Shown here: one piece after another, positions 29,199 through 32,375 of the stretch | Layout of the letters: every line of letters starts with the position of its first letter | How positions within the stretch are numbered: position 1 is the first letter of the stretch | Assembly (NCBI GenBank): GCA_026983515.1 | Contig: JALWHT010000164.1 | Location: 1 to 35,438, forward strand | Origin: Sulfurovum sp. | GTDB taxonomy: Bacteria; Campylobacterota; Campylobacteria; Campylobacterales; Sulfurovaceae | DNA: 35,438 bases | Direction of reading: 5' to 3' | The notes under the pieces: model-generated | Told to the model about the DNA's origin: nothing | Seen by the model: the letters and a program-made list of their open reading frames with translations, nothing else | The model's database searches: none | Translations under genes and position numbers: made by a program

Positions 29199-29280
29199 TT
29201 CTGCACAAAGCTAAACTGTCTGTGAGGGCAGGACGGAAAGTTATGGGTCTTCTCTCCGAAGATCGCCAGACTACTCAGAA
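29199..29280 (+). promoter_or_regulatory. Class I cyclic-di-GMP (GEMM-I) riboswitch aptamer
   Basis: The leader matches the class I layout in sequence and folding. P1: TTCTG (29199-29203) with CAGAA (29276-29280). The conserved GCACA follows (29203-29207). P2: CTGTCT (29216-29221) with GGGCAG (29226-29231), capped by GTGA, a GNRA tetraloop where the class has GAAA. Below P2, C29211-G29236 and T29212-G29235 pair around the AAA/GAC internal loop. GGACG (29231-29235) and AAAG (29237-29240) match the conserved GGGACGCAAAG block, and A29237 matches the adenine that stacks between the ligand bases. P3: AGTT/GACT (29239-29242/29269-29272), TGG/CCA and GTCTTC/GAAGAT (29247-29252/29258-29263). Many pairs differ from the Vibrio Vc2 example yet still pair. 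It lies about 55 bases before the outer-membrane protein start. The P1 side and exact ligand remain uncertain. Confidence 0.75.
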
Positions 29281-29334
29281 CATCATACAAAATAATTGCA
29301 TTGTTACGTAATAGATATTTTAAGGAGGAGTATT

Positions 29335-29952
29335 TTGAGTAAAGTAATGGCCGTATTGGCATTTGGAGCATTGAGCGTAGAGTCTGTTTATGCGGGAGGT
29401 AATGTTGCCCCGACAGAAGATCTTGTCCCGGTTCCTGTAATTGTAGAAGATTGCGGGTTTTATGTAGGGGGTGGTGCTTCGTTTCTGAACTATAATGAAG
29501 AGTACAGTGATGGTGTAACTGCTAATGTTGATATGAATGGTATTACATTGATCGCGGGTTATCAATTTAATGAATATATCGCAATAGAGGGTCGATATAT
29601 TACAGATATAGGAGGCTCCGATGAGGACTGGAGCGACGGTAGAACAAGGACAGATACAAACAATGATCTGTCCAACCTTGCCCTGTACGTCAAACCAAGC
29701 TATCAGTTTGGAGACTTTAAATTGTATGCGTTACTTGGATATGGACAATTTTCATATCAATACAAAGATACAGAAAAACAGAGTGAGAGTGGTTTTCAGT
29801 GGGGATTGGGAACAGGGTATAAACTCAATGATAACTGGTTGGTATTTGTGGACTATACAAAGCTGTATGATAATAGAGGTTTTGATAACTATCTTTCAGA
29901 TGCCGACTATAATGCTGATGCTTGGACAGTAGGTGTCACCTATTTGTTCTGA
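29335..29952 (+). CDS. Outer-membrane beta-barrel protein (OmpA/OMP_b-brl-like)
   Basis: 205 residues from a TTG at 29335, chosen because AGGAGGAG stands 4 bases before it and because it gives a proper signal peptide (SKVMAVLAFGALSVESVYA, cleaved before GGN). The ATG at 29296 would precede this with an unrelated basic leader. The mature protein is acidic, with alternating aromatic strands: FYVGGGASFLNYNEEY, GITLIAGYQFNEYIAIEGRY, LALYVKPSYQFGDFKLYALLGYG, QWGLGTGYKLNDNWLVF, and the C-terminal AWTVGVTYLF ending in Phe, the BAM signal. This fits an eight-strand porin-like barrel. Function unknown: adhesion, or a partner of the sorted protein encoded next. It is the first gene after the riboswitch. 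Confidence 0.85.
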   Translation: MSKVMAVLAFGALSVESVYAGGNVAPTEDLVPVPVIVEDCGFYVGGGASFLNYNEEYSDGVTANVDMNGITLIAGYQFNEYIAIEGRYITDIGGSDEDWSDGRTRTDTNNDLSNLALYVKPSYQFGDFKLYALLGYGQFSYQYKDTEKQSESGFQWGLGTGYKLNDNWLVFVDYTKLYDNRGFDNYLSDADYNADAWTVGVTYLF

Positions 29953-30020
29953 TATATGTCGAGGTTTGAAATTTGATGTTTTTAAAAGTTTTTAGAAAAT
30001 GAATAAAAGGGTGTTAAGAA

Positions 30021-31022
30021 ATGAAAAAAATAGTTAGTATAATCTTGTTGATAAGTAGTTTTACAGTGGTTGCAACGGCAAGTTCGATCATTATGGAGAG
30101 TGGATATATACAGGTGGGAGTGAGTGATGACGGTACGTTTGGTGTGGGAGGTACTAACCCGCCAGGTATATTGTTTGATGAGAATGGTACAGGGAATTAT
30201 GGTGTGGATGACTATCTGACACCAGGTAGTCCATGGGAATTTTTTACACTTGAAATCACAGCTGACACTAATGTGACATATACGAATAATAATGCTTCGG
30301 AGACATCCCCTGAAATGCCAACCTCTATTACAGGAGATACACACCAAGTAACTGCTACATCTGAAACACCTGATGGTCTCTTAAGAATGGTGCAGACATA
30401 TACTTTGGAAGAGGGTTCTAAAGTACTTAAGGTCGATGTAACTATTGAAAATATCTCTGATGCAATATTGGAAAATGTAAAGTATGCTCGGGGAATTGAT
30501 CCAGATGTTGATTTTATTAATTATGATATATTTGAGACAAACAATACACGAGGATATGACGGAAGTGCAGATGGTTTGCCTGTTTTCCCTGTTACAGATG
30601 TTGTAATTGCGGAAGGAGTAATGACAAAAAAAGTAATTTCACTACTCTATACCGGTGAGTTCTCTCATAATACAAATATTGATTCTAGTTGGGGTGTATT
30701 GCCAAGTAAGATTCTTGAAGGGCAAGATGATGGCTATGGAGATTATACAATTAATCTTGCTATAGACTTGGGAGCAATGGAACCTGGAGATGTCAAAGAG
30801 TTTAGTTTTGACTATGTTCTAGGTAATGACCTGCCGGATCTTTCAGGAATTTTGCCTCCACCAATAGAGCCCGTGACTCTTGCAAATGCAACATCATATA
30901 ATGACAACTCTCTGACATCGCAAAATGGTTCAGCTCCAGCTTTCAATATGGGAAGTATATTGGTAATATGCTTTATGTTTGTTCTTCTGTTCTACAGGAA
31001 GAGGGTAAGTAGAAGGAGTTGA
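30021..31022 (+). CDS. Secreted surface protein with exosortase-type C-terminal sorting tail
   Basis: 333 residues. The N-terminal signal peptide is MKKIVSIILLISSFTVVATA. The mature region is rich in Asn, Thr, Asp and Gly, low in Lys and free of Cys until the tail, with beta-rich blocks such as PPGILFDENGTGNYGVDDYL and YTLEEGSKVLKVDVTIENIS, typical of an extracellular protein. After a Pro-rich linker (ILPPPIEPVTL) and an Asn/Ser stretch, the last 30 residues form a tripartite tail: SAPAFNMGS (304-312), a hydrophobic helix (about 313-325) and RKRVSRRS. This is the architecture of PEP-CTERM and IPTL-CTERM substrates, but the motif is not a standard one. An exosortase gene follows with a 4-base overlap. 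Ribosome site AAAGGGTGTTAAGAA. I do not recognise the mature domain. Confidence 0.8.
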   Translation: MKKIVSIILLISSFTVVATASSIIMESGYIQVGVSDDGTFGVGGTNPPGILFDENGTGNYGVDDYLTPGSPWEFFTLEITADTNVTYTNNNASETSPEMPTSITGDTHQVTATSETPDGLLRMVQTYTLEEGSKVLKVDVTIENISDAILENVKYARGIDPDVDFINYDIFETNNTRGYDGSADGLPVFPVTDVVIAEGVMTKKVISLLYTGEFSHNTNIDSSWGVLPSKILEGQDDGYGDYTINLAIDLGAMEPGDVKEFSFDYVLGNDLPDLSGILPPPIEPVTLANATSYNDNSLTSQNGSAPAFNMGSILVICFMFVLLFYRKRVSRRS

Positions 31023-31531
31023 AAAAGAGTCAATTTAGCAGTTCTATACCGTCACTTATGATATTTTTGATGAAATATGTGGCGGTCTTGGCTACACTTC
31101 TTTTTATTTTTTATCTGCCTATTTCTTATAACTTCTCTTTTCTTCTTGATTTCCACACATCGTTGATTTATGATACTGTTGTAAAAATTTTGCAAGTGTT
31201 TGATGAACCGTTTGCGTTTTACCGCCACAGTATTGGACTACCGAATGGTTTTGTTATCGATATCGTCGATGACTGTAATGCGTTTTTACCATTTTTGATC
31301 TTTGTGGGCGGTATAACAGTCTTGCCTCTGAAAATGCTACAGAAAAGCATTTTTATCGTTACAGGATGGATTTTAATGATGTTTTTAAATATCATTAGAA
31401 TCGTGGTTATTGTATGGATTACATCATTTGATAAGCATCTTTTCTCCACAGTACATGATATTGTATCTTTTATTTTTATTGTGATTTTTACAATACTGAT
31501 ATATGGGATTTTTATAAAATTTGAATATTAA
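31019..31531 (+). CDS. Exosortase/archaeosortase-family transpeptidase, minimal form
   Basis: 170 residues with four to five membrane helices (about 20-45, 86-103, 111-134, 147-168). The exosortase catalytic set is present: Cys86 in VDDCNAFLPFLIF, Arg127 in FLNIIRIVVIVWI, and His146 in TVHDIVSFIF, each in the expected place at a helix start or end. These enzymes cut substrates next to the C-terminal membrane helix and transfer them, often onto a polysaccharide or lipid. At 170 residues it lacks the extra N-terminal helices and EpsI domain of the large XrtA type and resembles the short dedicated forms such as XrtH. The TTG at 31019 overlaps the substrate stop (TTGA) with AGAAGGAG directly before it; the ATG at 31058 is an alternative start. 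The gene ends 35 bases before the convergent amrB stop. Confidence 0.85.
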   Translation: MKKSQFSSSIPSLMIFLMKYVAVLATLLFIFYLPISYNFSFLLDFHTSLIYDTVVKILQVFDEPFAFYRHSIGLPNGFVIDIVDDCNAFLPFLIFVGGITVLPLKMLQKSIFIVTGWILMMFLNIIRIVVIVWITSFDKHLFSTVHDIVSFIFIVIFTILIYGIFIKFEY

Positions 31532-31567: not shown

Positions 31568-32375
31568 AAATGTTAGCATACAGTATTGCACCCATATACC
31601 CCACAACTGAGTGTCTATTGCCAGTTGCCGCGGCACTGGTTCGATAGTCAAGCAGCTTGCTGTGCAGCTTGAGAGCCTTGGCGGCAAGTACCATGGCTTT
31701 AATACCGATCTCTCCGCATGCTTCACACTTTTGCAGTCTGTTGTAGTCAAAGTCTCGAACACCCAGAAGACAGTTTCTGTCGATGGCTTCAGCCTCTTTG
31801 AGAGGGTGGAAGTGGCTGAGGTCGGAGCTGATGATGACAGCATTGTCTTTGTCCTGTAGCAGGGCTGTGATAATGTTCATCAGGCTTTTTACGGGAATAT
31901 CGCTGTAAATGAGTTCGATGACCTTGCGGTGGGGGAAGTAGTGCTGTAAAAAGGGCATCTGTACTTCGGTGGAGTGCTCTTTGGCGTGTGCTGGTGGTAT
32001 GAAGCCGATGTTGAAGCGTTTTGCCAGAGCGAAAAGGTAGGGGATGTCGATGTCAAGGTTGCCGCAGGGGGTTTGGTAGTGTTCAAAAAAACTGCCCGAT
32101 ATCCCTTTAAAATAGACATGGTGGCTTGGACCTATGACGATGAATCGTTTGGCTTTGCTGGGTGCCAGAAAACGGTAGGCGAAGTTGGCAGTATATCCGC
32201 TAAAGATGTAACCTGCATGCGGAACGATGACAGCCCTTGGTATGATTTTTCTGGTTTTGGGTGCAATGTCAAGCGTATCGAACTTTTGGTTGAATGTCCG
32301 AAACATCGCTTTGAGCTTTTGGCAAGAAGCCGGATAGAAAGTACCTGCCACCGCCATTTTGCGAAGTGCTTCCAC
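31566..32375 (-). CDS. amrB: AmmeMemoRadiSam system protein B (MEMO1 family)
   Basis: 269 residues from a GTG with AAAAGGAG upstream on the minus strand. MEMO-fold signatures: AVAGTFYPAS at the start, VPHAGYIFSG (His-Ala-Gly), FIVIGPSHHVYF, HAKEHSTEVQMPFLQHYFP and IISSDLSHFHP. These His residues sit where extradiol dioxygenases bind metal. AmrB commonly occurs with an AMMECR1-domain protein and a radical SAM enzyme; neither partner is in the window. The biochemical role of this system is not established. It is convergent with the exosortase cassette and divergent from tolB. Confidence 0.92.
   Translation of the reverse strand: MEALRKMAVAGTFYPASCQKLKAMFRTFNQKFDTLDIAPKTRKIIPRAVIVPHAGYIFSGYTANFAYRFLAPSKAKRFIVIGPSHHVYFKGISGSFFEHYQTPCGNLDIDIPYLFALAKRFNIGFIPPAHAKEHSTEVQMPFLQHYFPHRKVIELIYSDIPVKSLMNIITALLQDKDNAVIISSDLSHFHPLKEAEAIDRNCLLGVRDFDYNRLQKCEACGEIGIKAMVLAAKALKLHSKLLDYRTSAAATGNRHSVVGYMGAILYANI

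Follow-up and report, generated by a model that had tools for sequence, protein, structure and literature searches.

Can one second messenger decide both when a bacterial surface protein is made and when the enzyme that sorts it is made? The question is raised by positions 29,199 to 31,531 of a 35,438-nucleotide contig of Sulfurovum sp. (JALWHT010000164.1 of assembly GCA_026983515.1; the whole contig is called the window here), where a leader resembling a riboswitch for cyclic dimeric guanosine monophosphate (c-di-GMP) precedes three genes: one for an outer-membrane barrel, one for a secreted protein that ends in a sorting tail, and one for an exosortase. We predict from sequence, with a probability of roughly 70%, that this locus is a c-di-GMP-controlled surface-display operon with a dedicated exosortase. 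The aptamer in the 5′ leader would sense c-di-GMP and act on translation of the operon, or on RNA stability. The secreted protein would be exported and held in the inner membrane by its tail until the exosortase cuts the tail near a GSAPA motif, releasing the protein or handing it on for surface attachment. The barrel would be the outer-membrane partner, a likely role because barrels recur beside tail-bearing proteins.

The leader carries a class I c-di-GMP (GEMM-I) aptamer at 29200-29278 on the + strand, as the initial annotation had proposed. The covariance model RF01051 scores 45.9 bits there against a gathering score of 35 (E 4.9e-06, in the window), and the genus model R1, trained on 33 genus aptamers of which the window's is one row, gives 69.2 bits. 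The aptamer agrees with the genus alignment of 33 rows (being itself one of them) at all of the invariant columns, including a G that we take to be the equivalent of G20 of Vc2. Against the sister genome G103 the aptamer is 94% identical and the stretch from it to the start codon 96%, compared with 89% for the preceding intergenic DNA. That stretch (29279-29334, + strand) contains AAGGAGG at 29322-29328 and no terminator in our scan. Because no terminator stands behind the aptamer, control would fall on translation or RNA stability; translation is further suggested by some relatives, in which the aptamer ends just 19-33 bases ahead of the start codon. The remaining three GEMM-I elements of this genome (L136, L137 and L138) precede different genes, with functions judged by eye. 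One heads the gene of a LysM protein resembling NlpC/P60, one that of a 1525-residue protein with pseudopilins behind it, and one that of a secreted protein of 807 residues.

The first gene behind the leader (29335-29952, + strand) encodes a small outer-membrane beta-barrel protein, in agreement with the initial annotation: it scores 77.2 bits with PF13505 (OMP_b-brl), whose gathering cut-off is 28.7. It starts with TTG, 6 nt downstream of the AAGGAGG. After a gap of 68 bases comes the gene for the sorted surface protein (30021-31022, + strand; 333 residues), with a signal peptide, a beta-supersandwich domain (about 30084-30866), a linker and the sorting tail. In its predicted structure a beta domain is followed by a linker of low confidence, and residues 310-332 form a C-terminal helix. 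No Pfam family matches the protein even with E allowed up to 1, a sequence search of PDB chains gave no significant hit (best E 0.11), and relatives were found neither in the 77 other genus genomes nor in genome_contigs or viral_contigs. The supersandwich domain occurs in 9 other genomes among 398 of the order. Three of these matches were opened with annotation or Pfam (L253, L252 and L256), and all are parts of larger proteins of other families. The one at L253:82-2730 lies in a two-partner-secretion (TPS) exoprotein with a TPS secretion domain, followed by a ShlB-type transporter.

The tail itself (30885-31019, + strand) is tripartite, with an NGSAPAF motif, a hydrophobic helix and a basic end, and its conservation extends over 11 proteins (one of them the window's), in which the linker before it varies. 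This bears out the proposal of a C-terminal sorting signal. The tail is not of the PEP-CTERM type, since no PEP-CTERM model matches it and its motif is GSAPA, with no PEP motif; nor does any other CTERM model match it. No second match to it was found in its own genome, which is 92.5% complete, at E up to 10.

The third gene (31019-31531, + strand) encodes an exosortase. It reaches 39.2 bits with TIGR04178, the exosortase/archaeosortase family, against a curated cut-off of 23. Cys86, Arg127 and His146, which we presume to be the catalytic residues of exosortases, are invariant across an alignment of eight sequences. The best-scoring named model, XrtX (NF046081), gives 43 bits against a cut-off of 170, placing the enzyme outside that subfamily. 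PF09721 (Exosortase_EpsH, gathering score 25.7) matches the relatives P0002 (27.0) and P0003 (29.7), and the protein database lists it for its own copy of the window's enzyme (P0001). While the call of an exosortase stands, the 170 residues and the 4-base overlap with the sorted-protein gene that came with it rest on a TTG start at 31019, which AAGGAG directly abuts. The database copy starts at ATG 31058 and has 157 residues, which would give a 35-base gap instead of an overlap, and either start may be the right one.

This is the only exosortase match in the genome, at the completeness given above. With one enzyme and one adjacent predicted target, the locus qualifies as a probable dedicated sorting system, and the claim of a single substrate holds within a genome of that completeness. 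In a tree the enzyme falls outside the group of 41 genus exosortases, with moderate support (86/89 at the fork), and groups with P0002 and P0003 (100/93). It joins the exosortases of G204, G245 and G152 with weak support and on long branches; proteins neighbouring those three end in GSAPL or GGAPL tails. We considered the common genus-type exosortase as its source and rejected it, since the two are 22-31% identical (BLASTP) and group apart in the tree. No relatives of the enzyme were found in genome_contigs with tblastn.

The idea of a single transcript for the three genes, as first proposed, came through a scan for terminators and promoters. Between 28900 and 31700 there are two terminator-like sites, compared with 1.7 expected, and both lie within genes. 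The lone + strand promoter-like site between 29900 and 30060 puts its -10 box within the coding region of the sorted protein, leaving no usable site in the 68-base gap. Promoter-like sites number 15 in total, no excess over shuffled sequence (11.6, standard deviation 2.9).

The sister genome offers a view of how the locus may have arisen. G103 shares it at 89-92% DNA identity on both flanks, and has no blastn homology to the segment 29413-31592 in between (G103 locus L290). The left junction lies within about 29369-29412, in the signal-peptide region of the barrel gene. Identity steps down from 0.85 over the first codons to 0.66 in 29369-29412 and to 0.45 after that; 29412 is the last position with blastn homology, and the barrel reading frame is intact across the junction. 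The barrel thus shares its signal peptide with G103 and differs in its mature part. On the right, homology begins again at 31593, within the 3′ end of a Memo gene. The replaced segment has 36.1% G+C and the left flank 44.3%; this low value is not specific to the swap, because G103's own segment is at 39.6%.

In place of the window's three genes, G103 has its own barrel and, after an 11-base gap, a 389-residue lipoprotein, with no exosortase match in a genome that is 89% complete. Among 29 opened loci, each with the best relative of the window barrel in another genome, four have a GEMM directly before the barrel (G103, G101, G057 and G056), and in these four the gene after the GEMM-barrel pair starts within 9-15 bases. 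The G103 barrel is 45-50% identical to the barrels of such GEMM-barrel-lipoprotein modules (G101, G056, G057, G030) and 38% to the window's, and the G103 lipoprotein matches that of G101 at 42.5% over 348 residues. Because the G103 barrel is closer to the barrels of these modules than to the window's and the G103 lipoprotein has a counterpart in G101, the lipoprotein module is likely the ancestral cargo; the window's barrel, sorted protein and exosortase would then likely be a replacement under a resident riboswitch. A tentative extension, to which we give somewhat less than an even chance, is that the GEMM leader, start codon and signal-peptide codons form a fixed c-di-GMP-controlled display slot, with whole modules exchanged by recombination within the signal-peptide sequence. 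With the same reserve, the exchangeable modules would be either a barrel and a lipoprotein or a barrel, a sorted protein and its own exosortase; display and anchoring would change while second-messenger control is kept.

How general are these associations in the genus? In a sample of 78 genomes, GEMM-I elements are common (531 in all, in 72 genomes) and exosortases occur in 42, one of them broken (G022). A barrel profile (A4) built from the window and four relatives finds 40 matches above 220 bits in 32 genomes. We opened 44 barrel loci, comprising 38 of these 40 and six lower-scoring ones. A tail-bearing protein lies directly before the barrel in 36 of the 37 loci with room upstream; the remaining one, L210, failed our criterion, yet the tail profile finds a tail there. 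The genus tail consists of SD-GDAL or SPAL, a hydrophobic helix, and then RREE or RKEE, and the family is seen at L159, L140, L191, L212, L220 and L221 and at 30 further loci. Two of the large tail proteins have annotated adhesin repeats (DUF11, CshA and others), and neither of the two that were scanned matches an NCBIfam CTERM model.

The genus tail and the exosortase go together. With an E limit of 1e-10 the tail profile hits 38 genomes, 35 of which have an exosortase, compared with 7 of the other 40 (Fisher 7.4e-12, relatedness ignored; 2.3e-11 with the seed genomes and the window's own genome left out). The tail occurs without an exosortase match in G012, G057 and G058, and the exosortase without the tail in G000, G006, G018, G022, G023, G037 and G051.

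The riboswitch is linked to the same kind of surface protein. Among 21 adhesin loci judged complete, 10 have a GEMM directly before the large adhesin gene by the 33-row genus model, with at most 0.09 expected; they belong to G050, G107, G012, G020, G014, G059, G029 (two, one of them weak at 32.4 bits) and G049 (two). In G018 a GEMM stands directly before the barrel with no large gene between. The count of 21 excludes G039 (L227:4847-14155), where one GEMM heads a row of three large surface-type genes, the last of which has a tail and is followed by a barrel. Twenty loci with lower-scoring barrels were to serve as the negative control for this linkage, and two of them have a GEMM. In L231 it is far from the barrel and on the other strand; in L243 (G030) a barrel with 42% identity to the window's follows it directly, so the control is not clean.

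Exosortases join these assemblies as well. We opened 42 other exosortase loci (41 from the genus and one from G077) and 20 exosortase regions in the wider family. In G107 the order is exosortase-GEMM-giant-barrel. Contiguous exosortase assemblies also occur in another genus of the family: in G158, G171 and G320 barrel, exosortase, GEMM and giant gene follow in a row (the giant seen without its end), and in G235 the order is giant-barrel-exosortase. Riboswitch, barrel, exosortase and giant protein have been repeatedly brought together, in differing orders.

Several observations weigh against the operon as we read it. Those checks of the initial annotation that computation can address do speak for its proposal, and one of them was linkage of the three genes in relatives: parts of the arrangement are linked in G235, G158, G171, G320 and G107. 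Among the loci examined, however, the exosortase itself lies behind a GEMM only in the window. In G107, G158, G171 and G320 it is upstream of the GEMM. A GEMM falls within the fetched stretch in just 2 of the 42 other exosortase loci; in G004 it points away from the exosortase and in G107 it is downstream. By a reading made by eye, 29 of these 42 exosortases sit beside pseudopilin genes, the common genus exosortase there adjoining a set of genes for a pseudopilin and for type II secretion. A GEMM is lacking at 11 of the 21 adhesin loci judged complete. The genus tail profile (from the 36-row alignment A7) misses the window tail and has no match in the window's own genome at E up to 0.01, and Pfam yields no match for the window exosortase with E allowed up to 1. 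A promoter-like site at 30873-30902, inside the sorted-protein gene, could in principle serve the exosortase. Finally, a possible helix that would join the 3′ end of the aptamer to the start codon does not exceed chance. Pairing of the aptamer's 3′ strand with the TTG start would have made an "on" switch acting on translation; we rejected it, as 997 of 2000 shuffles reach its energy. In 38 genus GEMM leaders, too, the leaders' own pairings do not surpass swapped pairings (p 0.098). The operon may be switched either on or off by c-di-GMP: the tested leader pairing is not above chance, and in Vibrio cholerae, according to excerpts of a review, the two class I riboswitches respond in opposite directions (PMC6366702).

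The locus has four other conceivable explanations. The riboswitch might control the barrel alone, with the sorted protein, the exosortase or both transcribed from their own promoters and brought beside it by recombination. The 68 bases before the second gene, compared with 11 in G103, would fit this, as would a cargo unlike the sister's and the promoter-like site before the exosortase. Such an arrangement is nevertheless unlikely in our estimation, given that the genes share a strand, that the gap has no usable promoter-like site or terminator, and that in G103, G101, G057 and G056 the next gene follows the GEMM-barrel pair within 9-15 bases. We think it slightly less probable again that the aptamer in the leader has decayed or changed, and now senses another dinucleotide or no c-di-GMP at all. 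It does have the lowest score of the four GEMM-I elements in its genome, and it passes RF01051 and fails the c-di-GMP-I-GGC variant model RF03167 (53.2 bits, below that model's threshold of 59). On the other side, it agrees at every invariant column with the genus alignment, to which it contributes one row, and its identity to G103 exceeds that of the preceding DNA.

It is also conceivable that the exosortase does not process its neighbour and that the tail is an ordinary membrane anchor, as cleavage is something we infer and the tail lies outside all CTERM models. We regard this as very unlikely: the sole exosortase and the sole tail of the genome are adjacent, the tail motif is conserved after a variable linker, and GSAPL or GGAPL tails accompany the exosortases of G204, G245 and G152, the nearest in the tree (weak support, long branches). 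Lastly, the assembly could be wrong over the segment 29413-31592, the genome being a draft in 207 contigs and the right junction falling in the end of a conserved gene. The reading frame of the barrel, however, crosses the left junction unbroken, both new genes have relatives (at 82% and 77% identity), and the database has both proteins on two contigs each (possibly copies of one assembly), all of which makes an artefact highly improbable. The c-di-GMP-controlled display operon with its own exosortase is the reading that we prefer.

Apart from this locus, the window has eight tRNA genes in a row with equal-score pairs at 1460-2246 on the - strand; two pairs are identical in score, and one pair is shown to have the same sequence. 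This suggests that the row arose by tandem duplication.

The nearest published parallel that we found is in Clostridioides difficile, where c-di-GMP riboswitches control the sortase-dependent adhesins CD630_28310 and CD630_32460 (excerpts of PMC6366702). As in the window, a c-di-GMP riboswitch there governs surface proteins anchored by a sorting enzyme. Unlike in the window, the riboswitches are of class II and the Gram-positive sortase is unrelated to exosortase (PMC3237569, in part), and the parts of these sources consulted mention neither an outer-membrane barrel nor a sortase gene as part of the operon. Dedicated sorting systems, with one enzyme and one target encoded by neighbouring genes, were named for rhombosortase and GlyGly-CTERM (PMC3237569, same excerpts), and that a dedicated sorting enzyme may stand beside its sole target, a protein with a tripartite tail, is by that account already established. 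The rhombosortase system has another enzyme family and another tail motif, and those excerpts describe no riboswitch.

Closer to home, the window enzyme is like the TIGR04178 family in score and in its Cys, Arg and His; it falls short of the XrtX cut-off, and the tail beside it has no PEP motif. The GEMM-giant adhesin-barrel loci of the genus resemble the window in having a riboswitch, a tail-bearing surface protein and a barrel of the same broad family. They differ in gene order, in their tail, in their repeat-rich adhesins and in an exosortase that is usually elsewhere and in another branch of the tree. The GEMM-barrel-lipoprotein module of G103, G101, G057 and G056 has, in G103, the same leader at the same locus, and differs in its lipoprotein cargo. 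In Geobacter sulfurreducens, the GEMM-I genes gsu1945 and gsu1948 and the PEP proteins GSU1943 and GSU1944 have neighbouring locus numbers (PMC10599522); the consulted parts of that paper draw no link between them. This neighbourhood is a possible independent link between dinucleotide riboswitches and exosortase targets. A search restricted to open-access full text gave no paper that describes the window's combination in its listing or consulted parts. In our best view, what is new here is a dedicated exosortase cassette under c-di-GMP control that has taken the place of another cargo behind a resident riboswitch.

If this is true, one transcript puts a surface protein and its own sorting enzyme under the second messenger. 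The targets and triggers of exosortases are poorly known outside PEP-CTERM systems, and the genus-wide pairing of tail family and exosortase gives many independent targets. A cassette as small as this one, with one riboswitch, one target, one enzyme and one barrel, would be a tractable place to study how an exosortase acts on its target, and would let one ask whether the outer-membrane barrel joins the last step. The comparison with G103 also suggests that a riboswitch can serve as the stable head for exchanged surface modules.

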